Shown one piece after another: positions 54 through 26,047 of a DNA stretch of 34,547 bases. The position numbers and the translations under genes are program-made. The notes beneath the pieces are model-generated. The model worked only from the letters and a program-made list of their open reading frames with translations, was not told where the DNA came from and did no database searches. Position 1 is the stretch's first letter, and the number at the start of each line of letters is the position of its first letter. The DNA lies in NCBI GenBank assembly GCA_900318465.1, contig ONKQ01000036.1, positions 1-34,547 of the forward strand. The letters are read 5' to 3'. The stretch comes from an uncultured Bacteroidales bacterium (GTDB taxonomy: Bacteria; Bacteroidota; Bacteroidia; Bacteroidales; F082).

Positions 54-1082
54 TTATTTCGCTCTCTTTTCCCTCTTTTCTAATTCCGCCAACGGGTTCC
101 CAGAAGTATTTCCATATTTAGTCCCACCAACAAAATGCCATTGTTTCTCGGCAAAGCGCCAAGTACCTTGTTTTGTCGTACCATCAGCGCATTGGTGAGA
201 ACCCTGTGCAGCATTGTACTGCAAATTTCCTTGTGAGAACCAAACCTGCTTTGATGGACTTACAGAGAACACCCCATTGATGGCACCTGTTGGAGGCGGT
301 CCATAACCGCCTCCATTGCCACCGCCGCTCGGAAGCGAAGTAAAATACATTTCGTCGCCATAACCAGTTCCTTGGCTATTGATAGCATAGGCTCGAACAT
401 AATACACTGTTCCTGGAACTAGGCCGGTCATTAATACCGAATAACTTCCCGTACCATTGCCATTAGTGATATGGCTTCCACTTGTGTTGGGATTGTGGCT
501 CGTTCCCCAACAGATGCCTCGTTCCATCACAGTGGCACCACCATCACTGGTCACATCTCCTCCGCATTGGGCTGTGTTTTGCGTAATATCTGTTACTTGG
601 GCTGTTATTACAGTTGGAAGTACAGGTGTGATACTACCACCTCCCCCTCCGCCACCATTGTTTCCTCCTCCTTCAGCAAGTGTGGTAAAAGTTTTGTCTT
701 CTCCATAATAATACTCCAAGCCTCGCAAAGCAAAAGCCCGCACATGATAGGTTGTGTTGGGCGAAAGCCCTGTCAATGTCTTGACGAAAGGCTCGTTCCA
801 TGCCTCCGAAGATAATTGGCTGTCTTGTACAGTCGGATTGGACGAAGTGCTCCAGCAAATGCCAATCTTTGTCAAAGACAAGCCTTGTCTCACCTGAACA
901 GAGCATCCAGAAACGGCAGTTGAAGCAGTCACATCAGACGGCGTGTATGTTGTCACGATAACATCGTCATCCGAATTGCCACTAGAGTTGTTGTTATTGG
1001 GTTTGGTGCAACTTACGATGCAACTCATTACTGCTATAAACAGCAGCATAATTGTTGGTTTTGATAATGCTTTCATATCCAT
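54..1082 (-). CDS. FN3-like domain lipoprotein, probably C-terminally truncated
   Basis: The 342-residue product has a lipoprotein signal peptide with lipobox CIVSC (cysteine near residue 25), so it should be anchored in the envelope. Two fibronectin-type-III-like domains follow (about 45-134 and 156-250), each with a GICW-type motif and ending in YGE/YGD plus F-T-S/T, separated by poly-glycine linkers. The tail (about 263-325, motif FSVSPSKQVWFSQGNLQY) matches the opening of a domain common in Bacteroidales surface proteins, which normally runs on for well over 100 residues. Here it stops after about 60 residues and ends in a charged run (AELEKREKRAK) unlike the family. A frameshift or recombination truncation is the likely reason. 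It is the last of four minus-strand envelope genes. An alternative start two codons downstream is equally good. Function is unknown; surface binding is an inference. Confidence 0.8.
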   Translation of the reverse strand: MDMKALSKPTIMLLFIAVMSCIVSCTKPNNNNSSGNSDDDVIVTTYTPSDVTASTAVSGCSVQVRQGLSLTKIGICWSTSSNPTVQDSQLSSEAWNEPFVKTLTGLSPNTTYHVRAFALRGLEYYYGEDKTFTTLAEGGGNNGGGGGGGSITPVLPTVITAQVTDITQNTAQCGGDVTSDGGATVMERGICWGTSHNPNTSGSHITNGNGTGSYSVLMTGLVPGTVYYVRAYAINSQGTGYGDEMYFTSLPSGGGNGGGYGPPPTGAINGVFSVSPSKQVWFSQGNLQYNAAQGSHQCADGTTKQGTWRFAEKQWHFVGGTKYGNTSGNPLAELEKREKRAK

Positions 1083-1126
1083 ATTATTTTAGTGCTGCAT
1101 TCAATCTTTAATACAGAATACATGTT

Positions 1127-1795
1127 TTAAGGATAGTATTTATCAATTACATCCAGCGAAAGAGTTGGCCAAAAGTCAAAATACATATACTTGTAGTCAT
1201 ACTTCACTCCATCTACTTCAACAAAAAACCTTCCAGTAAAAGCTCTTGCAGCTTGTTGTTCGTGTTCGTTGAGATGCATAAGGGTCTCGTTATAAAGTTC
1301 CCAATCATCCGCTGTCATGATATATCCATTTTGCATTTGCTGTTGATAATACATATACGTATCATATTGAAACTTGCCATAAACTCCACAAAGCCATTCA
1401 CTATCTGCATTATAGAAAAGTAGGAACTCTTTGGAATAAGCATTGCCTTGTCTTGTTAGATACAACTTGTTGTCAAGAATGTCTTCGGATTCATCTTCTC
1501 GAAGATAGCCATACTCCACACCATACTTAATTGATCGGTCGGGAAGTGCCTCTTCCAAGGTGGATGTCAGCGAAGCAGTAATCTTATAATCATAATAGGA
1601 TGCCGTAACCTTAACATGCTCTCTAATCAACCGAGGAATCGAGGCTGATACTTCTGGTGTTTCTCCACCATTTGAGTCACCTCCTGAAGGGAAAGGATAA
1701 TTATCATCTTGTTTTGTACAACTCGCAATGCACAATATGACCGCTGCAAAAAGCGTAACAGTAAATGGTTTCATGATGTTCTTCATATTACACAC
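1127..1795 (-). CDS. Hypothetical lipoprotein
   Basis: The 222-residue protein starts with a lipoprotein signal (hydrophobic stretch ending LCIASC), followed by a short low-complexity linker rich in Ser, Gly and Pro. The mature part is mixed alpha/beta and rich in Tyr (motifs such as YGVEYGYL and YMYYQQQMQ). I recognise no family. A start three codons downstream (MKNIMKPF, base 1786) gives a more typical signal peptide. It lies 18 nt after the damaged beta-barrel gene and 44 nt before the FN3 lipoprotein gene, all on the same strand, so co-transcription is likely. The signal peptide resembles that of the downstream FN3 lipoprotein (MKPFTVTLFAAVILCIASC versus MLLFIAVMSCIVSC), which suggests the genes share history. 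Confidence 0.75.
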   Translation of the reverse strand: MCNMKNIMKPFTVTLFAAVILCIASCTKQDDNYPFPSGGDSNGGETPEVSASIPRLIREHVKVTASYYDYKITASLTSTLEEALPDRSIKYGVEYGYLREDESEDILDNKLYLTRQGNAYSKEFLLFYNADSEWLCGVYGKFQYDTYMYYQQQMQNGYIMTADDWELYNETLMHLNEHEQQAARAFTGRFFVEVDGVKYDYKYMYFDFWPTLSLDVIDKYYP

Positions 1796-1813
1796 ATTTA
1801 GTTCTAATAAAAA

Positions 1814-2361
1814 TTAAAATGGAATTGAAATTCCAATAATCCAGTTTCCAGTGCTCCCCGACTGGAATGGAAAATCATATTGGGTCATCAAAACATAATT
1901 CTCGATCCCAACTGAGAGTCTGGCACTGCCGCCCCAAAATGTTCTTTTATCAAGGCTTGTTAGATCTATTTTTTGTTTGCCTTCTTTTGCAGCAACCAGA
2001 TAGTCCATCACTACGCCTCCTCTGATAGCGACATGGAGTTTTTTGACATCGCCAAACAAATATCCAAAATAGGCTGGAACACGAAGGCTTGTGCTGGAAG
2101 TAGATAAAATCTTTGAGGAATACTGACCGTATGAAAAGCCTAATCCCGGGGTGAAGAAAACAGGAATCTCTTTATTCATAATGCCACCTTCCACTTGCAT
2201 CATAAACCCAAAATACGATGGTTGAAAAAATTGAAACCCATTATACCGCATACAACAGGAGCAATGGGCCTTTCACCCTTATTTCCTAAAATGGAACTTT
2301 GTCCTATAGCCATTCCGCTGAACAGCAACGCTAACATGACTATCAATACAAATCTTTTCAT
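1814..2361 (-). pseudogene. Small outer-membrane beta-barrel protein gene with a frameshift
   Basis: The start at 2361 (MKRFVLIVML..., a good signal peptide ending MAIGQ) opens a frame that stops at 2200 after 53 codons. The rest of the protein (motifs YNGFQFFQPSYFGF, FFTPGLGFSYGQ, VPAYFGYLFG, ending in a Phe as barrels do) is in another frame, which is closed upstream near 2270. The two pieces overlap between about 2200 and 2270, so a 1- or 2-base indel there would join a secretion signal to a barrel of about 160 residues. Alternating hydrophobic strands and the C-terminal aromatic residue support an outer-membrane barrel. The damage may be real or a sequencing error. The 3' part alone, starting at 2251, would lack a signal peptide. 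Confidence 0.7.
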
Positions 2362-2381
2362 TTCAATTAATTTTAATTGTC

Positions 2382-2420
2382 AAGGAGGTTGACCAAACTG
2401 ACTTGGTCTCCCTCCTCCTT
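2382..2420 (-). terminator. Intergenic hairpin, possible terminator after the FN3 lipoprotein gene
   Basis: AAGGAGG pairs with CCTCCTT, and inside it GACCAA pairs with TTGGTC, giving a long interrupted stem between two minus-strand genes. The U-tract on the minus side is weak, so it may attenuate rather than stop transcription. Confidence 0.4.
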
Positions 2421-2433
2421 CTTATTGTTGTTT

Positions 2434-3198
2434 TCAGAAATATCTCTCCAATTCCAATATGTCACCATATACACTCTCTTTCAGCACCAAATTATTCGAA
2501 GTGCATGATTGAATCGTATAAGTAACAGTTTTGGTTTGTCCATCGACAAAGCCATACGTATGACCATATACCCAAGGAACTATATCAAAATCACTAAAAC
2601 TAACGTTCGTGTATGTGGCCGTGACAATGTTGCCCGAAATGGTATAATCTCCAAAAGCCATAACGCCGCTAAAGCTATTACTATATTCAAAGAAGATCTT
2701 CCCCTTCACATCATCATAGTCGAAAATGATGTTCATATACAATTCATCGTATGTAGGTGAATGCATGTTCCAACCACCTGGAAGCATGGTCTCATAATTT
2801 GTGCCGCCACCTCCACCAGAAGTTTCAGTGGTAAAACTTTGGTTTTCACCATAGTAGTAATTTGTACCATCATAGGCAAAAGCACGCACATAGTACTTCG
2901 TATCAGGCGTAAGACCATTGATTGTACACACATAAGGCTGGTCACAAACTTCAGTGGATTGCTTATTGTCAGATGGAGTAGGATTAGAAGAAGTACTCCA
3001 ACACACCCCAAGTTCGGAGAGTGAAACATTTCCATTCACAATGGCATCGCCTCCACATGATGCGGAAGTGCTTGTGATGTTTGTTGGAGTGTAAGTCTTC
3101 ACTTCAACATTAGTGTTGTCGTCGGCATTAGGCTTTGTGCAGCCTGCCAGATATAATGCCAATAGCATCATACCAAAAAGTGTCATCGTTTTTTTCAT
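2434..3198 (-). CDS. FN3-like domain lipoprotein
   Basis: The 254-residue protein has a lipoprotein signal peptide (lipobox LYLAGC) and one FN3-like domain (about 35-128) with the same LGVCWSTSSNPTPS, PDTKYYVRAFAYDG and YGENQSFTT motifs as the protein at 54-1082. A GGGGG linker and a C-terminal domain of about 115 residues follow, predicted all-beta and rich in Thr, Tyr and Phe. The C-terminal part resembles lipocalin-like or META-like beta folds of Bacteroidales lipoproteins only in general composition, so I give no family. It is the first gene of the minus-strand envelope group. A weak -7-like box (TGGATTTG, 3242-3249) lies upstream. Function is unknown. Confidence 0.82.
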   Translation of the reverse strand: MKKTMTLFGMMLLALYLAGCTKPNADDNTNVEVKTYTPTNITSTSASCGGDAIVNGNVSLSELGVCWSTSSNPTPSDNKQSTEVCDQPYVCTINGLTPDTKYYVRAFAYDGTNYYYGENQSFTTETSGGGGGTNYETMLPGGWNMHSPTYDELYMNIIFDYDDVKGKIFFEYSNSFSGVMAFGDYTISGNIVTATYTNVSFSDFDIVPWVYGHTYGFVDGQTKTVTYTIQSCTSNNLVLKESVYGDILELERYF

Positions 3199-13783: not shown

Positions 13784-15025
13784 TTATATTTTCCTAATCG
13801 CCAGACAAGCGTTATGTCCGCCGAAGCCCAAGGAGTTGGAAATCGCAATGTCCAAATCGGCCTTGACGGGCGTGTTGGGCGTGTAGTTAAGGTCGCATTC
13901 GGGGTCGGGATTGTCCAAGCCGATGGTGGGCGGAATGATGCCGTTGTTCAAAGTCATTACACTGATGATGAGTTCGATGGCACCAGCGGCACCGAGGGCA
14001 TGACCCATTTCCGATTTCGTGGAACTGATGTGCGCCTTGTAAGCCTCTTCTTCGCCCATCGCAATCTTGATGGCCTTGGTCTCGCCGCTGTCGTTCATGG
14101 GCGTACCCGTGCCGTGGGCATTAATGTAGATGCTTTCGCCAGCCTTGAAATTGGCCTCCTGCAAAGCCTGCTTGATGGCCAAAGATTGTGTCGTCCCGTC
14201 GGGACGCGGGGCGGTGCTGTGATAGGCATCGCACGAGTTGCCGTAGCCGCAAAGCTCGGCGTAAATCGTCGCGCCGCGTTGCTTGGCGTGTTCGTACTCT
14301 TCCAAAAGGACGATGCCCGATCCCTCAGCGATGACAAAACCTGCGCGGTCTTTGTTGAACGGCAGAGAGGCATGTTTCGGGTCTTCTGCCTTGGTCAGGG
14401 CCTTGCAGTTAGCGAAACCGCCGATGGAAACGGGGTTGATGCCCGCCTCTGAGCCACCCGCGATGATGGCATCGGCATAACCATGCTTGATGGCGCGATA
14501 GGCCTCACCGATGGAGTGAGTGCCTGTAGCACAAGCCGTTACAATAGGCACACAAGGCCCTTGTGCGTTGTAACGGATTGCCACGCTGCCCGAAGCCATG
14601 TTGCCAATCATGGTGGGGATCATCAGGGGCGAAATCCAGCGCGCACCTTCATCATAATAAGTCTTGACGCCGCGCATGATGGTGTCGAAGCCGCCAATGC
14701 CGGAGCCGACATACACGCCCAAGCGGTCGGGGCTCATCTGCATATCTGCATTGTCCTTCATGGCCTGATAAGCAGCTGCCAAAGTGTAGACGGCGAAGCG
14801 GTCGTTGCGCTTGACGAAAGCCTTGTCAACGCCAAGAGCCTCGGGGTTGAAGTCCTTCAGCTCAGCGGCGATTTTCACGGGAAGGTCTGTGGTATCAAAC
14901 GACTTGATGAAATCGATGCCGCAATAGCCGTCCATCAGGTTTTTCCATATCGTCGGCAGGTCGTTGCCAATGGGCGAAACGGCACCCATGCCGGTAATCA
15001 CAACTCTTCTAATTTCAGTATTCAT
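13784..15025 (-). CDS. fabF: 3-oxoacyl-[ACP] synthase II (FabF)
   Basis: The 413-residue condensing enzyme has the Cys-His-His triad of KAS I/II: C165 (VTACATGTH), H304 (NAHGTGTPMND) and H342 (STKSEMGHALGAAGA, with K337). The start RRVVITGMGAVSPIG is the classic FabF N-terminus, and length is normal. It elongates acyl-ACP with malonyl-ACP, releasing CO2. It follows fabH and precedes fabZ on the same strand. The NSLGFGGHNA motif near the C-terminus (glycine-rich loop) is intact, so it should be active. Confidence 0.95.
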   Translation of the reverse strand: MNTEIRRVVITGMGAVSPIGNDLPTIWKNLMDGYCGIDFIKSFDTTDLPVKIAAELKDFNPEALGVDKAFVKRNDRFAVYTLAAAYQAMKDNADMQMSPDRLGVYVGSGIGGFDTIMRGVKTYYDEGARWISPLMIPTMIGNMASGSVAIRYNAQGPCVPIVTACATGTHSIGEAYRAIKHGYADAIIAGGSEAGINPVSIGGFANCKALTKAEDPKHASLPFNKDRAGFVIAEGSGIVLLEEYEHAKQRGATIYAELCGYGNSCDAYHSTAPRPDGTTQSLAIKQALQEANFKAGESIYINAHGTGTPMNDSGETKAIKIAMGEEEAYKAHISSTKSEMGHALGAAGAIELIISVMTLNNGIIPPTIGLDNPDPECDLNYTPNTPVKADLDIAISNSLGFGGHNACLAIRKI

Positions 15026-15087
15026 TTGTCTATTTTATTATTCTCTGTTTGTTTTTTAATGCAGAATTGGGACAAAACCAATCTATT

Positions 15088-15199
15088 CATCATTCTACAT
15101 TCATCATTCTACATTCATCATTCTACATTCATCATTCTACATTCATCATTCTACATTCATCATTCCGCATTCATCATTCCGCATTCATCATTCTACATT
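15088..15199. repeat. Tandem repeat, eight copies of a 14-bp unit
   Basis: Eight back-to-back copies of CATCATTCTACATT run from 15088 to 15199. Copies 6 and 7 carry CCGC in place of CTAC; the others are identical. The array ends on the first base of the fabH stop codon (read on the plus strand) and fills the gap to fabF. Copy number may vary between strains. Confidence 0.9.
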
Positions 15200-16152
15200 T
15201 AATTCTCCCATTCCCAAAGGCAAGCGGCTGAGACGAAACCAGCGCCGAAGGCACTCATAATAATCTTGTCGCCGGCCTTGATTTTGTTGTCTTTCAGCAT
15301 CTCGTCAAGCATAATCGGGATGCTGGCCGATGAGGTGTTGCCGTATTTCTCGATGATGGTAGGATACTTCTCCTCGGGGCCGCCAATGATGTGGCGAATG
15401 CCCTCTATGATGCGTTTGTTGGCCTGATGCAGCAAGAACCAGTCGATGTCGTTGTGGGTCAAATGGTTGTAGTCCAACACGTTTTGAATGTCCTTGGCCG
15501 ACTCAGTGACGGCGGTCTTGAACAATTCCTTGCCTTTCATCACAAGAGGCTGACCTTTGGTATAGTGTTGTTCAAAAGGTGTGGTCTCCATGCCGCGCTC
15601 GTAATAAAGCACGTCGCGGTCGGAGATCATGGTGAGCTTCACGTCCTTGAAGGCGGTGCCTTCGGTGAGCACCACTGCGCCGGCACCGTCGCCAAACAAC
15701 ACGCTACAGTCTCTTTCGTGCCAATCGCAGTATTTGGTGGGCTCTTCCGCGCACACAATCAAAATATTCTTGGCGTGACCCGCCTTAATCATGCTGTCGG
15801 CAAGCATCAGGGCGTTGACAAAACCGGCACAAGCCACGTTGATGTCGAGGCCCGCGCAGGTGACGCCAATGCGTTTTTGGATGATGCAGCTCAGTCCTGG
15901 GGTGACGTGTTGGTTCGCCACATTCGAGACCAACAGGAAATCTATCTGGTCGGTACGAAGCCCCGAGGCTTGGATAGCCTTGTTAGCGGCTTCAACGGCC
16001 AAGTCATATAAAGATTCGGTTGATAATAGGTGTCGCGCTTGGATTCCCGTGCGGGAAGAGATCCAAGCGTCGTTTGTGTCCAAAAAGGTGGCCAAGTCGT
16101 CGTTGGTTACCGTAAGTTTCGGCAATGCGCTTCCTGTTCCAATGATTTTCAT
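15199..16152 (-). CDS. fabH: 3-oxoacyl-[ACP] synthase III (FabH)
   Basis: Starting at 16152 (MKIIGTGSALP) the protein has 317 residues, the normal length of FabH. The catalytic triad is C108 (NVACAGFVNAL), H242 (LLHQANKRI) and N272 (YGNTSSASIP). It starts fatty-acid synthesis by condensing an acyl-CoA primer with malonyl-ACP. The frame stays open upstream to 16368, but that extension matches nothing in the family and includes the -7 promoter element at 16206-16213, so the shorter start is right. It is the first gene of the fab operon and so may set its expression level. Confidence 0.94.
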   Translation of the reverse strand: MKIIGTGSALPKLTVTNDDLATFLDTNDAWISSRTGIQARHLLSTESLYDLAVEAANKAIQASGLRTDQIDFLLVSNVANQHVTPGLSCIIQKRIGVTCAGLDINVACAGFVNALMLADSMIKAGHAKNILIVCAEEPTKYCDWHERDCSVLFGDGAGAVVLTEGTAFKDVKLTMISDRDVLYYERGMETTPFEQHYTKGQPLVMKGKELFKTAVTESAKDIQNVLDYNHLTHNDIDWFLLHQANKRIIEGIRHIIGGPEEKYPTIIEKYGNTSSASIPIMLDEMLKDNKIKAGDKIIMSAFGAGFVSAACLWEWEN

Positions 16153-16205
16153 TTCGATTCGGTTAAAAGGTTGATACTCGTTTTCGATTTTGATTAAAAA
16201 CGCCG

Positions 16206-16213: not shown

Positions 16214-16368
16214 CAGCATCGTGTCAAGCTGTGTGGAAAATGTGTCCAAAACGGGAAAAATGTGGCGAAAATCCCGTATTTGGGGTGAAATTCTGGGATT
16301 TTTGGGGTGAAAAATGAAGGTTTTTGACAAGGGTCGAGTTGACGTTTTGCCCTAAAACTGTCCAACAC

Positions 16369-16559
16369 TGGATGAAAATTTGTTGCAAATTCGTTGTTAC
16401 GAGGTGAGTAACGTTTGGCTCCTGGGCGTAGAGCCTATGTTCATGTTCAAGAGGTTTTATATCATCCTCTTTTGGCTGCAACATTGGTGAATAAGAGTAA
16501 AATTAAGAAGAGATTTTGAAATAAACCCGACACTTTTTATTCAATTCATAAAAATTGAT
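16369..16559. other. Noncoding gap, left edge of the AT-rich island
   Basis: I see no convincing gene here. A small hairpin (AAGAGG at 16449-16454 with CCTCTT at 16466-16471) is present. Base composition changes from balanced to AT-rich near 16480, which may mark the boundary of the acquired block to the right. Confidence 0.4.
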
Positions 16560-16567
16560 TATTTTTG
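16560..16567 (+). promoter_or_regulatory. -7 promoter element of the NurA-HerA operon
   Basis: TATTTTTG is a full TAnnTTTG match, 26 nt before the first ATG of the small leading gene. No clear -33 TTG is seen at the usual distance. Confidence 0.6.
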
Positions 16568-16593
16568 TAACCACAAACAACGTGATTTGTCCA

Positions 16594-16833
16594 ATGATGG
16601 CACAATATAAAATGGCATCTCGAAAGGGAATATTAAATATTAAAGATGCTCAAGTCTATGAAAAATGGATGTACCTTTTTTGGTTCACTGGTAACGAACC
16701 AATTAGACAATAAGATATTTTTAAGGACGATAAACAATGCCAAACCGATAAGTTATTATATTTGCAGGTTCTAAAAGCAATTCGATGTAATGAGTTATTC
16801 AAAATGTGTTTATTTGATAAATGGGAGAACTAA
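16594..16833 (+). pseudogene. Small leading gene of the NurA-HerA operon, interrupted by in-frame TAA
   Basis: From ATG 16594 a frame runs 39 codons (MMAQYKMASRKGILNIKDAQ..., ending FTGNEPIRQ) to TAA at 16711-16713. The same frame then stays open for another 39 codons (DIFKDDKQCQTDKLLYLQVL..., ending MCLFDKWEN) to TAA at 16831-16833. That second stop overlaps the start of the nuclease gene (ATG 16821) by 13 nt, the spacing expected of a coupled upstream gene. The whole would be a 79-codon, mostly helical protein of no family I recognise. A CAA-to-TAA mutation would explain the break; readthrough or sequencing error are alternatives. The 39-residue front part could also be made alone. Confidence 0.55.
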
Positions 16834-17990
16834 TACAATATATTGCAAATGAAACCGATGGCAAGGCTTTTGGTTCGTTTAAGTACGGTTATGATAATGA
16901 CCCGCAAATGCGGATACCATATGAAGAACAAGATTTGCCCATTATGCCCAAACAGTATGCAGAGAGTTTGAAAATACCCAAAACAAGGGATATGACAGCA
17001 ATGGCGCAACAATTAAGCAAATATCCACCACTGTTTCATTACTTTTTGGATGGTTCGCGTATGGTGTATAAAGTGGATGATATACAATATGACAAGAAAG
17101 TATATCCACTAGTTGCTGGTCAGATTTCTGTAGCATGTTGCGAACGCATTATGCAAGCAGATGGCATTTCTTTTGGTTCGTTTCAACATGTAGAGGAGGA
17201 GACATATTCTGTGTTGGCGTTGCCGACCGCCGCCAATTCAAGGGGCATAGATTCTGGCGTTTTCTTCCGCAATTTGTGTAACAAAATCAATGAATCACAA
17301 CCTGCAAAACGTAAAGGCATAAGAATTCAAAAGGTATTGGTTTATGCTTCTAGCCAACAAGATGGCTCTTTTGACAAGTTGGCCACTGCACGAATACAAG
17401 ATGAAATGGTGGATTGTGAAAAGAAAATTGTTGCGACACTTGTTGCTCAACACAAACTCACTCCAGATAGTTATTTGATAAAAGATGGCTCTTTGCAGTA
17501 TAAAACAATCAAAACGGGTGATTTTGGCGAAATGAAAAAAATACGTGCCAATTATCAACGTGTGGTTGGAGTCAGCAAAATGTTTAATCCTAATCTGATG
17601 CGAAACAATAAAGGACAAAGCATTGCTGCAGAGATTGCCAATCTGTCGTTGTTTCATCGCACACCAGCAATAATGTGGGAACCTGATCCTGCCTTCTGTG
17701 AAGCCAATTTTGCTATTTGGTATGTACGAGTTCGTGAGCGCGAAAAGACGGCTACACCATATTCCGGCATATTGAAAATTGAGAAAATGTTGATGACAGG
17801 AGAAGAAGCAGAACACGGACTGCAGACAGATGAAGTGGATATGATTACTGCCAACATCATCAACGAGCGCAATCCCGTCTGTTATGGCAAGGATGCACGT
17901 TGGGCTAATCACCTTTACCCAATATATATGACGGAAAGTTACTGCAAGAGTAAATTTAAAAGCGAATACTATTTCTTAAACATATTCTGA
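16821..17990 (+). CDS. nurA: NurA-like nuclease
   Basis: The 389-residue protein has the spaced motifs of the NurA nuclease family: an early acidic site FLDGS (D77), a second LIKDGSLQY (D222), VVGVSKMF (248-255), and a C-terminal HLYPIYMTESY (364-374). NurA proteins are Mn-dependent nucleases with an RNase H-like core that work as a ring with the HerA ATPase in DNA end resection or, in bacteria, in anti-phage defence. A herA-like gene begins 1 nt after this stop, which supports the call strongly. The N-terminal 60 residues are not recognisable. The start overlaps the damaged small gene by 13 nt. The gene is clearly AT-richer than the fab operon next to it. The nuclease identity rests on motifs only. 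Confidence 0.78.
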   Translation: MGELIQYIANETDGKAFGSFKYGYDNDPQMRIPYEEQDLPIMPKQYAESLKIPKTRDMTAMAQQLSKYPPLFHYFLDGSRMVYKVDDIQYDKKVYPLVAGQISVACCERIMQADGISFGSFQHVEEETYSVLALPTAANSRGIDSGVFFRNLCNKINESQPAKRKGIRIQKVLVYASSQQDGSFDKLATARIQDEMVDCEKKIVATLVAQHKLTPDSYLIKDGSLQYKTIKTGDFGEMKKIRANYQRVVGVSKMFNPNLMRNNKGQSIAAEIANLSLFHRTPAIMWEPDPAFCEANFAIWYVRVREREKTATPYSGILKIEKMLMTGEEAEHGLQTDEVDMITANIINERNPVCYGKDARWANHLYPIYMTESYCKSKFKSEYYFLNIF

Positions 17991-17991
17991 T

Positions 17992-19653
17992 ATGGAAACT
18001 ATCGGTAAAATCATCGCCACAGAAAAGTTACCTTCTACTATTGAGGAGTTTACTTTTTGGACTAATAAGGAACGCAAACTCAAACCATTTGATGTGGTTG
18101 TTGTAGAACACCACATTGATAATTCAAAAACTTTTGGAGTTGTAGAAGAAATTGCACACATAACCGATGCACCAAGTCCATTGGCGGGTTTTATTTCAAG
18201 TGATTTTGGGCAAGTTGATTCCACTTCATACACCGACCGCATTGGTATGAACTATGTAAAATGCAAAGTAGTTGGTAATTCTGCCAACATTTACATTCCT
18301 GTTACCGAAGGCAGTATAGTACGACTGGCATCACAGTCGGAGATAATGGAAGCATTAGGTCTTAACGATGTAAAGAATCCTGTTCCTGCTGGATACATCC
18401 AGATGTATGACGGTACGGAACAGCAGATTTTGCCAGTACATTTCAATTCACATTTCCTCATTGGTCCCGAAGGAGCGCATTTGAATATTTCTGGCATGTC
18501 AGGCTTGGCTTCCAAGACATCATACACAATGTTTTTGTTGAAAGCGTTGCAAGACACCACTCAAAAACGTAAAGAAGAATCAGTGGCATTTATTCTGATG
18601 AATGTGAAAGGAACAGACTTATTATCTATTGATCAAAAGAACGCAAAGCAGGATGAATTAGATGAAATACAACCAATATATGATATTTTGGGCTTGGAAA
18701 TGAAACCATTTCAACATGTTACTTATTATTATCCATATTCATCAAATGCTACGCTCTATACTTACGAAAAGAAAAATCGAATAGAAAGTCGTGTAAAAAA
18801 ACAGCAAGCGTTTCAATTTAAATATCTTTTTGAAACACCAGAAGATAAAGAGTGTTTAGAGTTGCTTTTTGCTAATGTTGATGACCCGAACGATACTATT
18901 GATGCGATAATCAGCTATATCATAGCGGGTAATGGGGCTTTCCGTAATGTTGAAACATGGGAGGATTTTCGTACAACACTATCAGAACAAGCCAATTCGT
19001 CAGTAACAGATAAAAAAGGTCAAAAAAATGAAATACCTGTAGTCAGTTGGCGTAAATTTTATCGACTATTCAATAAATGCTATCAAAAGAACCAACAAAT
19101 GTTCACTAATAGTTTGGGAAATTCGGGTATTCGATTGCGCGATAAAATTGCTGACATTAAAGGAAATGAGGTAATGGTAATAGATATAGCCAAGTTGGAT
19201 GATGAATCAAAGGGATTTGTTTTTGGTGATGTTATGCATGCGGTTAATGAATTGAAAATGAGTTCAGAACGGGAAGACATACCTGATCATATTATTATTT
19301 TTATTGACGAGTTGAATAAATATGCGTCAAACGATGCTCCCAAATCATCACCTATTTTAAGACAGTTACTTGAAATTACGGAGCGAGGCCGTTCATCTGG
19401 AATAGTACTCTTTGGCGCAGAACAGTTTGTTAGCGATATACACAAACGAGTTAAAGGTAATTGTGCTACACAAGCATTTGGACGTACAAATGCGATAGAA
19501 ATAACAAAGGATGATTTCCGTTTTATTCCACAAGTTTATAAAACAATGTTGACTCGTCTAAAACAAGGTGAATATATAATACAGAATCCTGTATTCCGTT
19601 CACTTTTGAATATTAAATTCCCCAAACCAATTTATAAATACTACAACGAATAA
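17992..19653 (+). CDS. herA: HerA-like DNA-pumping ATPase with variant P-loop
   Basis: The 553-residue protein has an N-terminal beta-barrel (HAS-barrel-like, about 30-110, motif FDVVVVEHHIDNSKTFGVVEE), then the HerA/FtsK-type ATPase core. Walker B is clear: IIIFIDELNK (434-443, D439, E440). ITERGRSSG (462-470) and LFGAEQFVSDIHKRV with QAFGRTNAIEI (472-504) match HerA sensor and arginine-finger regions. The P-loop reads SGMSGLASKTS (167-177), in which the usual Gly before Lys is Ser and the spacing is one residue longer than GxxxxGK. HerA hexamers pump DNA into a partner nuclease ring. A helical insert (about 255-375) interrupts the core. The stop shares a base with the next ATG. Confidence 0.82.
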   Translation: METIGKIIATEKLPSTIEEFTFWTNKERKLKPFDVVVVEHHIDNSKTFGVVEEIAHITDAPSPLAGFISSDFGQVDSTSYTDRIGMNYVKCKVVGNSANIYIPVTEGSIVRLASQSEIMEALGLNDVKNPVPAGYIQMYDGTEQQILPVHFNSHFLIGPEGAHLNISGMSGLASKTSYTMFLLKALQDTTQKRKEESVAFILMNVKGTDLLSIDQKNAKQDELDEIQPIYDILGLEMKPFQHVTYYYPYSSNATLYTYEKKNRIESRVKKQQAFQFKYLFETPEDKECLELLFANVDDPNDTIDAIISYIIAGNGAFRNVETWEDFRTTLSEQANSSVTDKKGQKNEIPVVSWRKFYRLFNKCYQKNQQMFTNSLGNSGIRLRDKIADIKGNEVMVIDIAKLDDESKGFVFGDVMHAVNELKMSSEREDIPDHIIIFIDELNKYASNDAPKSSPILRQLLEITERGRSSGIVLFGAEQFVSDIHKRVKGNCATQAFGRTNAIEITKDDFRFIPQVYKTMLTRLKQGEYIIQNPVFRSLLNIKFPKPIYKYYNE

Positions 19654-21212
19654 TGGCACGAATAGGAAAAAATGTACTTGAGTCGTTGACTCGCAGCATG
19701 TATGCTGATAGCAAATGTGTATATCGTGAGTATATACAGAACGCTGCCGATCAGATAGATGCGGCAAAAGAGGTCCACCCTGAATATGAATACAATGTGT
19801 ACGTAACCATTGATAAACAGAATCGTACTATTATTATTGAAGATAATGCCACTGGTGTAATGGCAAATAAAGTCCAAGAGTTGCTTATAGATGTGGCTCG
19901 TTCGGACAAAGAACGTGGAGTTAATAAAGGCTTCCGAGGCATTGGCCGTTTGGGAGGTTTGGCGTATTGCAAAACACTCAAATTTGAAACTTCATATTTT
20001 GACGAAGATGTTGTTTCAACTGTAATATGGGATGCTGTACGCTTGAATCATATTCTTGATGACGACAATGATGATAGTGATGCAGGTGATGTTATAGATA
20101 CTATTACGAAGGTTTCGTCGCAAAAAAACGATACAATCAGAGATAAGCACTATTTTAAGGTCATTATGGAAGATGTTACAGATGAAAAGCTGCTGAATGA
20201 AAAAGATGTTCGTGACTATCTTTCTATGGTTGCACCAGTAGATTATTCAAATCATTTTGTGTATCGTTCTGAGATATACAAATTTATGGAGAAACATAAT
20301 TTGCATTTAGATTGTTATAATATATTTGTTGGTTATAATCAGATTTTCAAAGATTATTCAATGACCATTTATGACCCCAAAGGGCAGGAAGAGGATAAGG
20401 TTACTGGGGTGGAGTTTTGGTATGAAGAGAATTCCAAGAGCGCTCCAATGTATTGGGGCTGGTATTCAATTTCAAGTTTGAAAGGTATTCTTTCTAAATC
20501 AAACAACGCTCGAAATATCCGATTGCGTTGTGAGAATATACAATTAGGTGACGAAACGGCTTGTTATCGTTTAATGCCAACAGGTGATAAGGCTCGGTTT
20601 GTTAGATATTTCTTCGGTGAAATTAATGTGTTGCCAACAAGTAAACTGGTACCAAATTCACAGCGTGATTATTTGAGAGAAGATGAAGGGTTGAAAGAAT
20701 TTGAAAACAATGTTGAGGAAAAGTTGTTGCAACTTGAAAAGCTTTGTTATTCTGCATCAGGTGCAAGAAAAACAGATAAAACAATTCGAGATACAGGAAA
20801 AAAAGAAGTAGTAATAAAGGAAAAGCTCAAAAAAGGGGTTACAAGCGACGCTCAAAGGCAACAACTTGAAAAAGAATTGAAAAAAGCACAAGAAGAAAAA
20901 TCGAAAGCCTGTAAAAAACTGAATGAGATAAAACAAAAATGGGAAGAAGAAAACAACCCGTTGTCACGTATGTTTTCTCCTGTTGGCATTCAAGTGCCAC
21001 AAACAAAGACGGAGTCTGAAAAGCAAATAACAATTGCTTCTGAATCTGTTGTTTATACTCAGTTACGTACTGATGGTGAGAAATATCAAAAATATACTCC
21101 GCAAGAGAAGAAACTCATACTATCTATTTACGGCGTTATTGAAAAGTCATTGAACAATGAGAAAGAACGGGAAGCGTTGATTGACAAAATTGAAGAGGAA
21201 ATTACCAAATGA
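19653..21212 (+). CDS. Hsp90/GHKL-type ATPase with coiled-coil tail
   Basis: The 519-residue protein has the Bergerat ATP-binding fold: N-box YREYIQNAADQ (E27, N30, D33), G1 box EDNATG (63-68) and a lid GFRGIGRLGG (93-102). The spacing and the REYIQNA motif match Hsp90/HtpG-like proteins rather than histidine kinases. A middle region (about 200-345) with NARNIRLRCENIQLGD and LVPNSQRDYLRED resembles the Hsp90 middle domain. A Lys/Glu-rich coiled coil (about 385-432) and a short helical C-terminus follow in place of the HtpG dimer domain. It may act as an ATP-gated clamp or sensor. Its 1-nt overlap with herA and 4-nt overlap with the radical SAM gene suggest it is part of one complex or pathway. 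Confidence 0.8.
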   Translation: MARIGKNVLESLTRSMYADSKCVYREYIQNAADQIDAAKEVHPEYEYNVYVTIDKQNRTIIIEDNATGVMANKVQELLIDVARSDKERGVNKGFRGIGRLGGLAYCKTLKFETSYFDEDVVSTVIWDAVRLNHILDDDNDDSDAGDVIDTITKVSSQKNDTIRDKHYFKVIMEDVTDEKLLNEKDVRDYLSMVAPVDYSNHFVYRSEIYKFMEKHNLHLDCYNIFVGYNQIFKDYSMTIYDPKGQEEDKVTGVEFWYEENSKSAPMYWGWYSISSLKGILSKSNNARNIRLRCENIQLGDETACYRLMPTGDKARFVRYFFGEINVLPTSKLVPNSQRDYLREDEGLKEFENNVEEKLLQLEKLCYSASGARKTDKTIRDTGKKEVVIKEKLKKGVTSDAQRQQLEKELKKAQEEKSKACKKLNEIKQKWEEENNPLSRMFSPVGIQVPQTKTESEKQITIASESVVYTQLRTDGEKYQKYTPQEKKLILSIYGVIEKSLNNEKEREALIDKIEEEITK

Positions 21213-23227
21213 ATCGCAAGGTTTTACTTATAGAACCTAATTATAAGAACAAATTTCCGCCAATCGGGTTAATGAAAATTGCTACATATTTTCGTTTGCG
21301 TGGCGATGATGTCATTTTCTTTAAAGGAGAACTTAAAGATTTCTTGCTTAATTGGCTTACGGGTTTATGTGTTGACAAGTTAGCGTCTATTGATGACTCT
21401 ATCAATTGGAGATTGAAAGGCGATAAAATAAAGCGGTATATAAAAACTGGCAAACGGGAGGATTATGATGCAATACATGTAGAAAAATCAAGTTTCGCAG
21501 TGTTGCTTTACCCTTGGTTTGACCAATACCGCAAAGAATTCCGTTCAGGCAAGTTGTCCAAAGAATCAAAGTTTGATTTTGTCGGAGTTACTACTTTGTT
21601 TACTTTCTATTGGGACATAACAATAAAAACAATAGAATTTGCAAAAACGTTAGTCAAAGACATTAGCAAATTACAAGTTGGTGGCGTGTTGGCATCCATT
21701 CAACCTGATGAGATTTATGAGGCAACAGGCATTAAACCACATTGTGGCACACTTCATTCAAAAGGTGACATAGACCCTGATAATCCGTATATTATTGATG
21801 AATTGCCACTTGATTATTCTATTTTAGACGAAATAGATTATGTTTACCCTGACAATAATGCCTATTTCAGCTATACCACCCGTGGTTGTATTCGCAAATG
21901 TGCCTTCTGTGCCGTACGAACCCTAGAACCACATTATGTGGACCATATTCCGCTCAAGGAACGTATAGAACGCACTCGCAAGCTATACGGAGAGCAGCAG
22001 AATCTGCTTTTAATGGATAATAATGTAATGGCATCAAAACAATTCATGCAGATTATCCAGGATATTAAAGATTGTGGCTTCGCGGCAGGAAGTAAATATA
22101 TTGAAACAAACCAGTATGATTTGGCAATTCGCAATTTGCGACTGCACTTGAATGACCGTGCTTATATTCGCAAAGCTTTCAAGCTCTTGCAGGAGCTAAA
22201 TGATATGAAACGTTTTTCAGAAGATGAGCGTACTGAAATATACGCAGTACGAGACAAGTTCGGTTTGTTGTCGTTAGATACATGTACGCGTGATGCTTTG
22301 TTACAATCATATCACTTTTTTGCTTCTTATTTTACAAAACGATATTCAAGCATAAAAGGTAAGCAGAGAATAATAGATTTCAATCAGGGTGTAGATGCTC
22401 GCTTATTTACAGAAGAGATTGTTACTGCGTTAAGTGGAATAGCTATTCGACCTTTGCGTATTGCATTTGACAACATTAAGACAAAGCCTAAATATTTGAA
22501 AGCCATAAAATTGAGTGTCGATCATGGCTTAAAAGACTTTTCAAATTACCTGCTTTATAACTATACTGATAGACCAGATGACTTGTACGAGCGTTTGAGA
22601 ATCAATGTGGATTTGTGCGAAAAATACGATGTAAGCATTTATTCTTTCCCAATGAAATACCATCCGATTCGAGGTGAACACAGCCATGACCGTGATTATA
22701 TTGGTGAGAATTGGAATAGAAAATACATTCGTGCCATTCAAGCAGTATTGAACAGCACAAAAGGAAAAATTGGACGAGGAATATCTTTTTTTAAGAAGGC
22801 ATTTGGAGAAAATCTTGAAGAATATCACAAATTACTTGATATGCCTGAAACGATGATTATCTACCGCTATTTCTTTGAGTGGCTTGGCGATGAAAAAGGC
22901 ATTAGAAAAGCAAAGGAGATTTTGGGGCATAGTATGAAAAGCATTTCTACTCAAGCATGGTGGGAGTGTTACAACGAATGTAAAAATACGCTGTCTGAGG
23001 AATTGTGGGAAGAAGTACTCAAGTGTATTCATAAAAATGACTTTGAGGAGAATAATCATTTTACAAATCCTTTAGTTGTTAAGCTTATTTCGTTCTATGA
23101 GAATAATAGAAAAGCCATAATTGACCCTGATACAGAACTATATAGAATGAAGTTGGAATATGATAAAAGCCCTACCCTTGAGTTAAAAAAACATAATAAG
23201 AATGATGAAAGAATTGTGAATTATTAG
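21209..23227 (+). CDS. Large radical SAM protein of the NurA-HerA operon
   Basis: The 672-residue protein begins with a B12-binding-like Rossmann part (NRKVLLIEPNYKNKFPPIGL, 2-21; VGVTTLFTFYWD about 125-136), as in the B12-binding-type radical SAM group. The cluster ligands are C227, C231 and C234 in TRGCIRKCAFC. LLLMDNNVMAS (266-276) fits the second core strand, and IDFNQGVDARL a later one; an insert of roughly 80-90 residues lies between them. The C-terminal 170 residues are helical and unknown. It should use S-adenosylmethionine to start radical chemistry, but the substrate is unknown; a nucleic acid, nucleotide or partner protein is possible. The ATG overlaps the stop of the Hsp90-like gene by 4 nt (ATGA). 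It is the last gene of the operon. Confidence 0.82.
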   Translation: MNRKVLLIEPNYKNKFPPIGLMKIATYFRLRGDDVIFFKGELKDFLLNWLTGLCVDKLASIDDSINWRLKGDKIKRYIKTGKREDYDAIHVEKSSFAVLLYPWFDQYRKEFRSGKLSKESKFDFVGVTTLFTFYWDITIKTIEFAKTLVKDISKLQVGGVLASIQPDEIYEATGIKPHCGTLHSKGDIDPDNPYIIDELPLDYSILDEIDYVYPDNNAYFSYTTRGCIRKCAFCAVRTLEPHYVDHIPLKERIERTRKLYGEQQNLLLMDNNVMASKQFMQIIQDIKDCGFAAGSKYIETNQYDLAIRNLRLHLNDRAYIRKAFKLLQELNDMKRFSEDERTEIYAVRDKFGLLSLDTCTRDALLQSYHFFASYFTKRYSSIKGKQRIIDFNQGVDARLFTEEIVTALSGIAIRPLRIAFDNIKTKPKYLKAIKLSVDHGLKDFSNYLLYNYTDRPDDLYERLRINVDLCEKYDVSIYSFPMKYHPIRGEHSHDRDYIGENWNRKYIRAIQAVLNSTKGKIGRGISFFKKAFGENLEEYHKLLDMPETMIIYRYFFEWLGDEKGIRKAKEILGHSMKSISTQAWWECYNECKNTLSEELWEEVLKCIHKNDFEENNHFTNPLVVKLISFYENNRKAIIDPDTELYRMKLEYDKSPTLELKKHNKNDERIVNY

Positions 23228-23298
23228 ATTGTCAAATAGTGAGTTCAGATTGTTTTTATTCATGGCTCCGAAGGGGCGGTAATAGTACTACCTGCTGT

Positions 23299-23415
23299 TT
23301 ATGTGTTCCAAAATGGAACATGAGCCAAATTTTTGTGGATGAAGTTGATGCTGTAGCCTTCCTCCAACATCTTCATGTACTTCAATTGCTCTTCATAATT
23401 GTGTCTTTTTGGCAT
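23299..23415 (-). pseudogene. Remnant of a transposase N-terminus
   Basis: On the minus strand a 38-codon frame starts MPKRHNYEEQLKYMKMLEEG and continues YSINFIHKNLAHVPF before a stop. The front part resembles the N-terminal helix-turn-helix of IS3-type OrfA proteins, which then breaks off. No further transposase sequence or clear terminal repeats are seen. A GTTCCA-AAA-TGGAAC palindrome (23304-23318) lies at the break point. It sits just after the last gene of the acquired operon and may be a scar of past insertion or deletion. Confidence 0.5.
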
Positions 23416-23421
23416 AATAAA

Positions 23422-23455
23422 AACCCCGAAAGTTTTTTGTCCAACTTTCGGGGTT
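23422..23455 (-). terminator. Intrinsic terminator of the export operon
   Basis: AACCCCGAAAGTT (23422-23434) and AACTTTCGGGGTT (23443-23455) form a perfect 13-bp stem. On the minus strand it is followed by TTTATTATG, so it ends the minus-strand operon about 50 nt after its last stop codon. Confidence 0.8.
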
Positions 23456-23504
23456 CAGTTCAATTTGACGCACCCTCTTTTTCATTTTCCTCAAGAGGCA
23501 TAAC

Positions 23505-25970
23505 CTACACCCCCCCCATCCCCTGAGGGGCGGTGCCTGACTCGCCCTCGCCTTGGCGGGCCATCTGCTCCAATTCCATCTTGCCGAAACGGAACGTCAC
23601 GCCGACGGCGACGCTGCGGCTGTTGTACTTGGAATTGGAGATGGACTCCACATACGGGCTGTAGTTCGTGCTGCCCCAACTGTTCCAATTGAAGATGTCG
23701 TTGGCGTTGACGAACACCGAAAGTTTACGGTCAAAGAAGTCGGCGCGAAGGCCGGCATTGATGCCATAGCGGGCGTGACGCTCGCTGAACAGCGATTGGG
23801 TCGGTGAACTGTAATAACCCGAAGCCGTCACTTCAAGTTTGTTCCAAAGTTTGGCCCACATATTGAGGCGGAAACTGTACGACCACATATCAGACTCGTA
23901 AGGTTTCCCGTTGTATTCCGTATAAATGTAAGAATCGTAAAGGTTGGCGTAGAAACGCAAGTTGAAGAAGCCGCTCGGACGATACATCACATTGGCCTCC
24001 AAGCCTGTGTTGTGGCTCTTGCCCACGTTGACGGGATATGAATACTGTACCACTCGATTGTAGAGCCAATGGTATTTCGACAAGGATATCGTGTTGATTT
24101 CGTTGGTCTTGCCTCGATAGTAAGCTGTTAGGCCAACGGAACCGAAACTGTTCCAATACTTGGTCCAGCCTGCCTCAACGGATTGGGTATAAACGCGGTC
24201 CAAGTCGGGGTTGCCTGTGCTGTAATCATCTTCGTGATACATGGGGAATTTGCTCAACTGCTCGGCATTAGGAGCGGCAATGCGCATCGTGTAACTCAAC
24301 TTGAAGTTGTGCATCGACTCGGTTCTGTATGAAAGGTGAATCGAAGGTCTGACGCTGAAGAAATGCTTGCTGAAATCGTAATCGGTCGTATCGTTAGGGA
24401 AATTGGAGAGGTATTTCCCGCTCACCAATTCGCTGACGAAACGCACACCAGGCTTTATCGTAAAGCCGCCAAACTTGTGCTGCACGGTGATGAAAGCCTC
24501 GTTGTTCAGGTTGCTGAACTTGGCATCGTAGGAACGGTAAACGTCGTTTTCCCAATGATCTGGTTCCGTGCTATATGGGTCGGACACGGTGTCGGTGAAC
24601 AGGAACTCTTTTTCAGGGTCGTAGCCAATCGTGTAGCCGACCGAAATCTCTCCGTTCTCGGAATAAGGGCGGTTATAGATGATTTCGCCCTCCCCGCCAA
24701 TAGAACGATCTCCACCGTCCTGCCGCATCACCTTTTCGTATGCCACTGGTGAGGTGAATTCCCTTGTAATCGCACCTGCATTGCGATAGCCCCAACCCAT
24801 GCCATTGACGCTAACGGAAAGATTGTGGCCTTTGTTATCGAACTTATGCTGGTAATACAAGCCACCGTTGGCAAAGAAACTGCGGCTTAGCGCCCTGCTG
24901 TTTTCGTGTATGTTGGTCAACAAAGTGTCGGGGAAAAACTCTTCCCTCATCATCCACGCGTCGTTGGTCTGGGTGCTCCAATTGGGCCATCCGCCGAGCC
25001 AGAGGTTCAGGCTGTTGGCCGTGTCAATCTCGTAATCGAGGCTGAAAAAACCGCCCGCGTTGTATCCTGGATTTTTGTATTTCGATGAGTCAATCTCGTG
25101 GTTGGCCAACACACCTTCATCTGTGAATAAAGATTGATCTACAGAATATCGGCCTTCCCAAACGGAATAGCCACCATTGACGTAAGCGTTCACCGTCAGT
25201 TTCTCGTTCGACCAAACGTAGGAAGCCCAAGGCCCGATGTAGGGACTCGTCGAGGCATTCACGCCGAAACTGAAGAACTCGTTTTTCTGGATTTTGGCGT
25301 TGGTCACGATGTTGATGATGCCATCGGCGTTGGAACCGTAACGCGCCGAGGGATTGGTGATAACTTCCACGCGGTCAATGCTGTTGGCAGGCAAGGTCTG
25401 GATGTAGGTCTTGAGGTTCTCGGCAGTCATGTGCGAGGGTTTGTCGTTGATCCATACCTCAACGCTCGAAGTGCCGCGCAGGGTGATGTTGCCCTCCACG
25501 TCGACCTCCACGCCGGGAGCGTTCTGCAAGGCGTCGGACAGTGTACCCGTCTGGATGCTGTTGTCTTCGGCCACGTTGTACATGGTCTTTTCGCCCTCCA
25601 CGGCAAACAAGGGACGTTTTTCGGTAATCACCACTTCGCTGAGCTTGGTGGAGCCTTCAGCCATTTTCAGCAGGCCGAGGTCTTGGTTGCCCTTCACCGT
25701 CAGCATTTGCTCGTAGGTTTGGAAGCCGATGGCCGACACTTGCAGGCGATAGTCGCCGTTGGGGGCCAAAAGCTCGAAACGACCTTTGTCATCGGAAGCC
25801 GCACCGCTCACAAAGACGCTGTCGGCCTGCCGGAACAGCCCCACATTGACAAAGGGAATGCCCTTGCTGTTGGCTTCTTCGACGATGGTTCCCGTGATTT
25901 TGTTTTGTGCCAAAGCGGGCATAACAAAGCACCCGATAAGAGCAAAGAGTATAAAGATACGCTTTTTCAT
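23505..25970 (-). CDS. Outer-membrane beta-barrel receptor-like protein with carboxypeptidase-regulatory-like domain
   Basis: From the start at 25970 (MKKRIFILFALIG) the protein has 821 residues. A signal peptide (ending ALAQ) precedes a CarboxypepD-regulatory-like domain (about 22-105; KITGTIVEEANSKGIPFVNV), a plug domain (about 125-225; TLSDALQNAPGVEVDVEGNI and NPSARYGSNADGIINIV) and a large beta-barrel of the OMP_b-brl_3 type. This is a TonB-receptor-like outer-membrane protein. The frame opens 10 codons earlier, but that extension spoils the signal peptide. It follows the TolC-like gene in the same direction, with 77 nt between. Its substrate is unknown; the context suggests work with the efflux system. 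Confidence 0.9.
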   Translation of the reverse strand: MKKRIFILFALIGCFVMPALAQNKITGTIVEEANSKGIPFVNVGLFRQADSVFVSGAASDDKGRFELLAPNGDYRLQVSAIGFQTYEQMLTVKGNQDLGLLKMAEGSTKLSEVVITEKRPLFAVEGEKTMYNVAEDNSIQTGTLSDALQNAPGVEVDVEGNITLRGTSSVEVWINDKPSHMTAENLKTYIQTLPANSIDRVEVITNPSARYGSNADGIINIVTNAKIQKNEFFSFGVNASTSPYIGPWASYVWSNEKLTVNAYVNGGYSVWEGRYSVDQSLFTDEGVLANHEIDSSKYKNPGYNAGGFFSLDYEIDTANSLNLWLGGWPNWSTQTNDAWMMREEFFPDTLLTNIHENSRALSRSFFANGGLYYQHKFDNKGHNLSVSVNGMGWGYRNAGAITREFTSPVAYEKVMRQDGGDRSIGGEGEIIYNRPYSENGEISVGYTIGYDPEKEFLFTDTVSDPYSTEPDHWENDVYRSYDAKFSNLNNEAFITVQHKFGGFTIKPGVRFVSELVSGKYLSNFPNDTTDYDFSKHFFSVRPSIHLSYRTESMHNFKLSYTMRIAAPNAEQLSKFPMYHEDDYSTGNPDLDRVYTQSVEAGWTKYWNSFGSVGLTAYYRGKTNEINTISLSKYHWLYNRVVQYSYPVNVGKSHNTGLEANVMYRPSGFFNLRFYANLYDSYIYTEYNGKPYESDMWSYSFRLNMWAKLWNKLEVTASGYYSSPTQSLFSERHARYGINAGLRADFFDRKLSVFVNANDIFNWNSWGSTNYSPYVESISNSKYNSRSVAVGVTFRFGKMELEQMARQGEGESGTAPQGMGGV

Positions 25971-26047
25971 GGTTGTTGTTTTTACAAGATGGTATTTCAT
26001 TGTTTGACAAAATAACGAAGTTGAAACTGAATTATTGCGAATTGCAA

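Follow-up and report, generated by a model that had tools for sequence, protein, structure and literature searches.

The window analysed here (the whole of the 34,547 nucleotides of contig ONKQ01000036.1, assembly GCA_900318465.1, from an uncultured Bacteroidales bacterium of the F082 lineage) carries an operon of four genes, which encode a NurA-like nuclease, a HerA-type DNA translocase, an Hsp90-like ATPase and a radical S-adenosylmethionine (SAM) enzyme (Table 1). The four open reading frames (ORFs) are intact; the first two are 1 nt apart, the second and third share 1 nt, and the third and fourth share 4 nt, exactly as stated in the original prediction, which was made from this DNA without database searches. 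The identities proposed there for the four products are borne out by profile and fold matches, on weaker evidence in the case of NurA. No gene starts at 16560, where the feature had been said to begin; a Bacteroidota-type -7-like box, TATTTTTG, is located there (16560-16567), and the first gene starts at 16821. Comparison with relatives indicates that the operon is very probably a mobile conflict module and that, judged from gene content, its constant part is the Hsp90-radical SAM pair, around which the DNA-handling genes change.

Table 1. Features of the operon and its surroundings, with positions in the window.
Feature	Positions	Strand	Basis
NurA-like nuclease gene, 389 aa	16821-17990	+	ORF list, DG motif alignment, profile, predicted model
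HerA-type DNA translocase gene, 553 aa	17992-19653	+	PDB profile match, Walker motifs, PADLOC mad8
Hsp90-like GHKL ATPase gene, 519 aa	19653-21212	+	Pfam, profile match, invariant ATP-site residues
Radical SAM enzyme gene with N-terminal cobalamin-domain-like region, 672 aa	21209-23227	+	Pfam, cysteines, fold
Inserted segment missing from the compared same-genus loci, edges approximate	16313-23505		DNA comparison, 13/13 loci
Possible promoter -7 box TATATTTG	16757-16764	+	starts 64 nt 5' of the first gene
Terminator-like perfect hairpin of 13 bp, separating the operon from the convergent gene downstream	23422-23455		folding versus shuffles

The HerA family profile matches HerA of Deinococcus radiodurans (PDB 7f6d_B) with an E value of 1.8e-129, compared with 1.3e-10 for the best other HerA chain, which places the protein by sequence in the clade of D. 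radiodurans-type HerA-NurA. The Walker A-like motif (G168xxG171xxxK175) and the Walker B motif (DELN, 439-442) are invariant (18/18), and residues 393-534 alone match the PADLOC model mad8 (8.2e-7). The NurA-like protein has no Pfam match, and the sole PDB match of its profile is the NurA chain 7f6d_H (E 0.078). Its predicted model is of low confidence (predicted local distance difference test score, pLDDT, 53.8), and the sole match of this model with an E value up to 0.001 is 7f6d_G (3.6e-6, TM-scores 0.31 and 0.35), which is used as support only because the structure prediction is poor. Profile and low-confidence model together suggest, not strongly, that a partner with the NurA fold is present. 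The pairs D77-G78 and D222-G223, which we take to be catalytic, are invariant in 15/15 sequences. Marinitoga camini virus 1 encodes a relative of this protein, with the annotation of a Rad50/Mre11-associated exonuclease; in that virus NurA-HerA (L019:4927-8753) is accompanied by a convergent relative of the radical SAM gene, with no Hsp90-like gene in the 13.6 kb examined. Distant HerA relatives on plasmids (L022, L023, L024 and L027) are followed by genes annotated as SbcD or exonuclease, and by an SbcC or SMC ATPase in three of the four.

The third protein is classified as an Hsp90-like GHKL ATPase from its match to Pfam HATPase_c_3 (3e-7), from the match of its family profile to HtpG (7.5e-16) and from the ATP-site residues E26, N30, D33, D64, G68, G96 and G98, all invariant in 20/20 sequences. 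The fourth matches Pfam B12-binding (1.8e-4) and Radical_SAM (2.5e-4), both below the curated cut-offs, as well as PADLOC PDC-M51A (0.0023), and its CxxxCxxC motif (C227, C231 and C234) is invariant in 16/16 aligned rows. Its predicted model (pLDDT 85.0) matches seven chains with E values up to 0.001, all of MgmA, AprD4 or TsrM; the match to MgmA (9ccb, 4.4e-6) has a TM-score of 0.51 by MgmA length and 0.34 by query length, with a root-mean-square deviation (rmsd) of 11. A radical SAM enzyme with a cobalamin-type fold is supported by this model.

The four genes have an identical order at all eight loci that were found by the Hsp90-like protein in genome contigs, and 23 records hold all four families in the order NurA-HerA-Hsp90-radical SAM. 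These comprise the 20 records compared, with the window among them, in which a single order and a single strand are kept in 20/20, together with L006, L080 and L105. Other genes sit between the Hsp90 and radical SAM genes in five of the 23 (L029, L033, L080, L081 and L082), and the count includes L031, whose Hsp90-like gene contains an in-frame stop codon, and L035, in which herA is interrupted by another ORF. In a Mantel test on the 20 records, the identities between record pairs in one family are correlated with those in the others (r 0.65-0.96, each reached by 0 of 2000 permutations); the test ignores shared species ancestry, and two of its records, L007 and L008, are near-identical. The proportion of nonsynonymous differences (pN 0.09-0.22, in comparison with the closest relatives L001 and L002) is far below that of synonymous differences (pS 0.71-0.83) in all four genes. 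At the level of sequence, therefore, the four genes are passed on together and are under purifying selection.

The operon is located between fabH (3-oxoacyl-ACP synthase III) and a gene resembling TonB-linked receptors. In DNA comparisons, 13 of 13 same-genus loci align with the window as far as 16312-16330 (16152-16156 in two of them) and resume at 23500-23551, with the operon absent between. These empty-site loci, 12 from other genomes and one (L085) from the window's own bin, were selected for having both neighbours close together on one contig; of 40 genomes, 33 were found to have fabH and 37 to have TonB-like genes. In nine of the 13 the neighbours are no more than about 230 bp apart, and in the remaining four (L090-L093) the junction holds 1.6-2.2 kb with an ORF of about 510 aa and none of the four genes. 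L085, on contig C8 of the bin, is a second version of the left flank, with a fabH that is about 90% identical in protein sequence and the TonB-like gene directly next to it, which suggests that two strains or species are mixed in the bin.

Genome-wide counts, which cover the phylum of the window and include its own genome, show a patchy occurrence. HerA is carried by 2 of 36 same-genus genomes, at different sites, by 3 of 60 relatives and, in the order, by 8 of 295 genomes, and the radical SAM gene by 6 of 395 genomes of the phylum, in one just as a fragment. The HerA of the other same-genus carrier, G024, is 51-52% identical to that of the window, its operon is on another contig (L030), and its fabH/TonB site (L090) is occupied by another gene; the HerA of a Paludibacteraceae assembly (L001) is 84% identical. 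The empty site, the patchy occurrence and these identities are best explained by horizontal transfer, and a core housekeeping function was rejected on the first two. Acquisition, which had been proposed from the composition and position of the operon, is upheld, and co-occurrence of the four genes, far from being a core-genome feature of close relatives only, is sporadic and at different sites. The G+C content of the operon is 35-40%, versus about 44-57% in the adjoining flanks (14001-16000 and 23001-26000), but AT-richness by itself is weak proof because a second stretch of the window, 1001-3000, is equally AT-rich (37-40% G+C). In the window, none of the genes between fabH and the TonB-like gene was recognised as a mobility gene. 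It should be noted that the operons of L007, labelled Gastranaerophilales, and L008, Bacteroidales, have a DNA identity of 92% over 6.1 kb, which reflects recent transfer or misbinning; L007 was not taken as evidence for occurrence outside Bacteroidota, since the L008 assembly shares its isolate prefix and carries a near-identical operon.

With the Hsp90 family as the only query, a scan of viral contigs located 18 loci, distributed over 17 contigs, and a radical SAM gene adjoins the Hsp90 gene on 15 of the 17. NurA-HerA is present on three of these contigs (L098, L099 and L105), and eight contain a module of an SNF2 helicase, a protein of 139 aa and a pair of paralogues of about 340 aa, located in front on five contigs and behind, on the opposite strand, on three; with L020 and L028, this module is found in 10 records. 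The paralogues are annotated 'ParB N-terminal domain' on plasmids; PADLOC PDC-M38A is matched at 1.9e-8, and the one copy scanned has no Pfam match up to 0.01. On a viral-collection contig (L048:996-11478), DrmA (2.8e-161), DrmB (1e-52) and a NERD helicase are joined to radical SAM and Hsp90-like genes; another Hsp90-like gene is located upstream of this DISARM-like cluster (L100). A DndB-like DGQHR protein directly precedes the radical SAM enzyme in five plasmid or viral-collection records (L020, L021, L028, L054 and L062), and the L020 copy matches Pfam DndB (1.8e-11) and PADLOC DpdB (1.5e-17). The original prediction had centred its model on the HerA pump, and the comparison moves the centre to the Hsp90-radical SAM pair.

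Several relatives show additional genes. On a Rhizobium conjugative plasmid (L020:2825-14728), two ParB-N-annotated paralogues, an SNF2 helicase, the DndB-like protein, the radical SAM enzyme and the Hsp90-like protein are encoded together, and a convergent Hsp90-like/PIN_8 pair on the same record is perhaps a separate system. Among Bacteroidota, L029, L033 and L082 have an extra, second Hsp90 and a protein of about 320-330 aa, which are found 3' of the radical SAM gene in L008, and L080 and L081 have an extra OLD-type ATPase, a 273-295-aa protein and another Hsp90. Assignment of the extra protein of about 320 aa to the PP_RS20740 family was rejected; the matches were weak (3.6e-7 and 0.0028) and the only literature lead concerned furfural tolerance.

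The radical SAM family extends into phages. A scan of viral contigs with this family gave 37 loci, with long versions at 13 and weak short versions (192-335 aa) at 24. CxxxCxxC is found in 22/24 of the short versions, DNN in 23/24 and FNQGLDAR, as a strict pattern, in 6/24, and FNQGVDAR in 9/13 of the long versions. A relative of one short version is present in 15 phage records, of which five were viewed for their neighbourhoods, in addition to Marinitoga camini virus 1. In three of the five, genes annotated as DNA methyltransferase and as PAPS reductase are both located within 6 kb of the radical SAM gene; in one of these three a methyltransferase gene overlaps it by 20 nt, and in the fourth phage it is overlapped by a ParB-like gene. 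In Bacteroides phage BI-TP1 (L115:3938-7383) the short version lies amid genes annotated as DNA methyltransferase and PAPS reductase. These neighbours, together with the DndB-like and DrmA-DrmB partners, suggest, short of proof, a nucleic acid substrate for the enzyme, which we regard as quite possible but far from assured.

Of the 19 loci with scanned flanks, at least four have defence genes nearby, a raw count that is uncorrected for the rate at which a random Bacteroidota locus would score. In L007, an AbiP2 reverse transcriptase gene (3e-182) overlaps the radical SAM gene by 4 nt; in L030, the operon of G024, PtuA (1.9e-80) and PtuB (3.6e-48) of a Septu system are about 2 kb from the operon; and the flanks contain methylase and specificity subunits of a type I restriction-modification system in L083 and a PDC-M26A-like gene (2.6e-53) in L034. 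From 20 loci, 108 flank ORFs were picked, of which 96 from 19 loci were scanned and 12, mostly cut by the end of a contig or locus, were left out; the counts are by family, with per-protein PADLOC results for the proteins chosen by size and position. The conflict role originally proposed is favoured by these genes and by the DISARM-like variant near relatives of the operon, and it gains nothing from the window's own neighbours, fabH and the TonB-like gene.

Boxes resembling TATATTTG start 42-49 nt 5' of the first gene in L001, L002 and L005, and there is none in L003. Both TATTTTTG and TATATTTG were recognised by what we take to be the -7 consensus of this group, and such a likeness is no evidence of function. 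The hairpin downstream of the operon has a folding energy of -19.6 kcal/mol (z -4.37), equalled by 0 of 200 shuffles. A conserved small gene 5' of nurA was considered and dropped, as it is shared by three pairs of relatives only, none of which includes the window. A family of about 347 aa without known domain is encoded directly 3' of the radical SAM gene in four relatives (L003:8980-10023, L004:9829-10872, L005:13539-14582 and L006:13502-14572), and L002 has a 206-aa relative of it; the L003 copy, the one scanned, gave no family match, and there is no counterpart among the ORFs of the window.

Among open-licence papers no report combining HerA, NurA, Hsp90 and radical SAM was found. PADLOC v2 has no model that matches the NurA-like or the Hsp90-like protein up to E 1, and a catalogued system was rejected on the grounds that only HerA (mad8, over part of its length) and the radical SAM enzyme (PDC-M51A) were matched; within these two sources, the claim that no described system unites these four families is sustained. 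The nearest relative is the D. radiodurans HerA-NurA pair (7f6d), which is the best match of both window proteins (weakly for NurA) and is likewise encoded by adjacent genes. That pair is portrayed in PMC12977600 as a two-gene end-processing pair, whereas the window pair is mobile and coupled to Hsp90-like and radical SAM genes. SIR2-HerA and DUF4297-HerA also pair a HerA ATPase with an effector nuclease, and passages of PMC11291478 describe DUF4297-HerA as an anti-phage machine in which HerA is coupled to a nuclease. However, the four window proteins have no SIR2 or DUF4297 match, a NurA-like protein and two extra conserved genes are present instead, and the window HerA is far closer to 7f6d_B than to other HerA chains. 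The main text of PMC10853773, on defence systems with HerA/FtsK capture, is without the terms 'Hsp90', 'NurA' and 'GHKL'. The full mad set of MADS is not found: among the four window proteins only HerA matches, to part of its length.

Other systems share single components. GHKL ATPases of the MORC and paraMORC type occur in operons with helicases and nucleases, and DNA looping between sites has been proposed for them in passages of PMC2292703. A GHKL ATPase is thus common to both, but the best match of the window protein is HtpG/Hsp90, and the DNA methylase and superfamily II (SFII) helicase of the MORC restriction systems are absent from the window operon, which has a radical SAM enzyme instead. 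DrmA and DrmB of DISARM are absent from the four window proteins and are joined to the Hsp90-radical SAM pair only in L048. As for Dnd and Dpd, the DndB/DpdB-like protein that directly precedes the radical SAM enzyme in five relatives is absent from the window operon, and no Dnd or Dpd family matches the four window proteins in PADLOC. For the GHKL-Shedu nuclease VcSduA, ATPase and nuclease mutants lose defence according to passages of PMC12137116, and for archaeal HerA-NurA an antiviral role is suggested and resection doubted in PMC12977600. Since HerA-nuclease defence and GHKL-gated restriction have such precedents, the kind is not wholly new; the new part is the Hsp90-radical SAM core with exchangeable DNA machines.

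In the mechanism that we propose, a HerA ring would feed duplex DNA into NurA, which would degrade it, and such degradation can be predicted with considerable confidence. The Hsp90-like dimer would be a clamp, driven by ATP, through which recognition is coupled to the nuclease, as has been proposed for MORC-type GHKL proteins, and the radical SAM enzyme would modify nucleic acid, in the simplest case by marking self DNA (or by tagging foreign DNA) for discrimination by the degrading machine. The pair would then stay constant while the degrading machine is swapped because it supplies the discrimination between self and foreign. The anatomy of the operon, the conservation of its catalytic motifs, its co-inheritance and its mobility are established by comparison, and marking is what we infer from them. 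As a whole, a horizontally moving anti-invader operon in which NurA-HerA degrades, the Hsp90-like protein gates and the radical SAM enzyme probably marks nucleic acid is put forward tentatively, at slightly short of even confidence, and self-marking in particular is doubtful.

Several observations weigh against this proposal. In L033 the radical SAM frame is broken and NurA and HerA are kept, which is awkward for strict self-marking, with the caveat that in this draft genome only the second-type Hsp90 is present and the first type is missing. Two Hsp90 loci, L107 with a strong and L114 with a weak match, have no radical SAM gene, and most of the loci behind the Hsp90 profile themselves bear one; conversely, L045 and L046 combine a radical SAM enzyme and a protein read by eye as ParB-like (PADLOC PD-Lambda-5_A, 4.1e-32 in L045) without Hsp90. 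The fold superpositions are loose (rmsd 9-13), and the closest solved structures are of enzymes whose substrate is a protein, an aminoglycoside sugar or tryptophan, in no case nucleic acid. DxHxxG, presumably the cobalamin-binding motif, was not seen by eye in the window enzyme, so that its chemistry is uncertain. The fifth viewed phage (vir215) has no annotated modification gene near the radical SAM gene. Furthermore, many flanking genes of the relatives are ordinary, 6 of 10 picked flanking proteins have no PADLOC family at 1e-10, and beyond the operon itself nothing in the window points to defence, its nearest neighbours being housekeeping-like.

Part of this evidence could be accommodated by an enzyme that acts on protein. 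Hsp90-like proteins are client-binding chaperones, and the Hsp90-like protein might present a client (HerA, NurA or a protein of the invader) to the radical SAM enzyme, whose modification would release the nuclease. The top fold match, MgmA, is a protein methylase that modifies glutamine, and the adjacency of the two genes on 15 of the 17 contigs would fit such a partnership; however, the DNA module changes completely, and therefore no such partner is a constant substrate, and three of the five viewed phage homologues lie amid DNA methyltransferases, so that we regard this version as unlikely. It is slightly less probable still that the enzyme makes a small molecule or an altered nucleotide after infection, which the Hsp90-like ATPase or HerA would sense. 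Viperins are radical SAM enzymes that make antiviral nucleotides, so there is a precedent, and AprD4 and TsrM, among the nearest folds, are small-molecule enzymes, but no viperin family was among the Pfam, PADLOC and NCBIfam matches up to E 1, and no dedicated sensor domain was recognised in the operon.

A role of the operon in the maintenance or competition of mobile elements, protecting the element or excluding its rivals instead of defending the host, is somewhat better placed than either of these, though still rather unlikely. Relatives are found on plasmids, some of them typed as conjugative, on viral-collection contigs and, in part, in Marinitoga camini virus 1, and an integrase is near the L044 relative, but the segment between fabH and the TonB-like gene shows no recognised mobility gene. 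The two readings overlap, because defence genes on mobile elements are common. Very unlikely, finally, is an accessory for DNA repair or end resection, in which NurA-HerA would process breaks with the help of the other genes. In D. radiodurans recombination is reduced when NurA-HerA is lost, as reported in passages of PMC12977600, and HerA relatives on four plasmids adjoin genes annotated as SbcD or exonuclease and as SbcC or SMC ATPase, one set being partly unannotated. Nevertheless, the operon is sporadic, moves horizontally and is located outside the core, neither Mre11 nor Rad50 is encoded by it, DISARM or SNF2 modules are exchanged into the relatives, and the same passages doubt resection and suggest the antiviral role for the archaeal pair.

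Beyond the operon of the window, the anti-invader proposal can be widened to a group, as yet undescribed, in which the Hsp90-like and radical SAM proteins would be a portable core that marks DNA or RNA by radical chemistry, is joined to at least three DNA machines and is matched by short versions of the radical SAM core in phages, possibly carried to wear the same mark; this wider reading is likewise doubtful. If it were true, one portable Hsp90-radical SAM pair would link HerA-nuclease systems, GHKL-gated restriction and DISARM, and radical SAM chemistry would join the ways in which bacteria mark or sense nucleic acid. The finding is also a lead for the unexplained radical SAM genes of Bacteroides phages.

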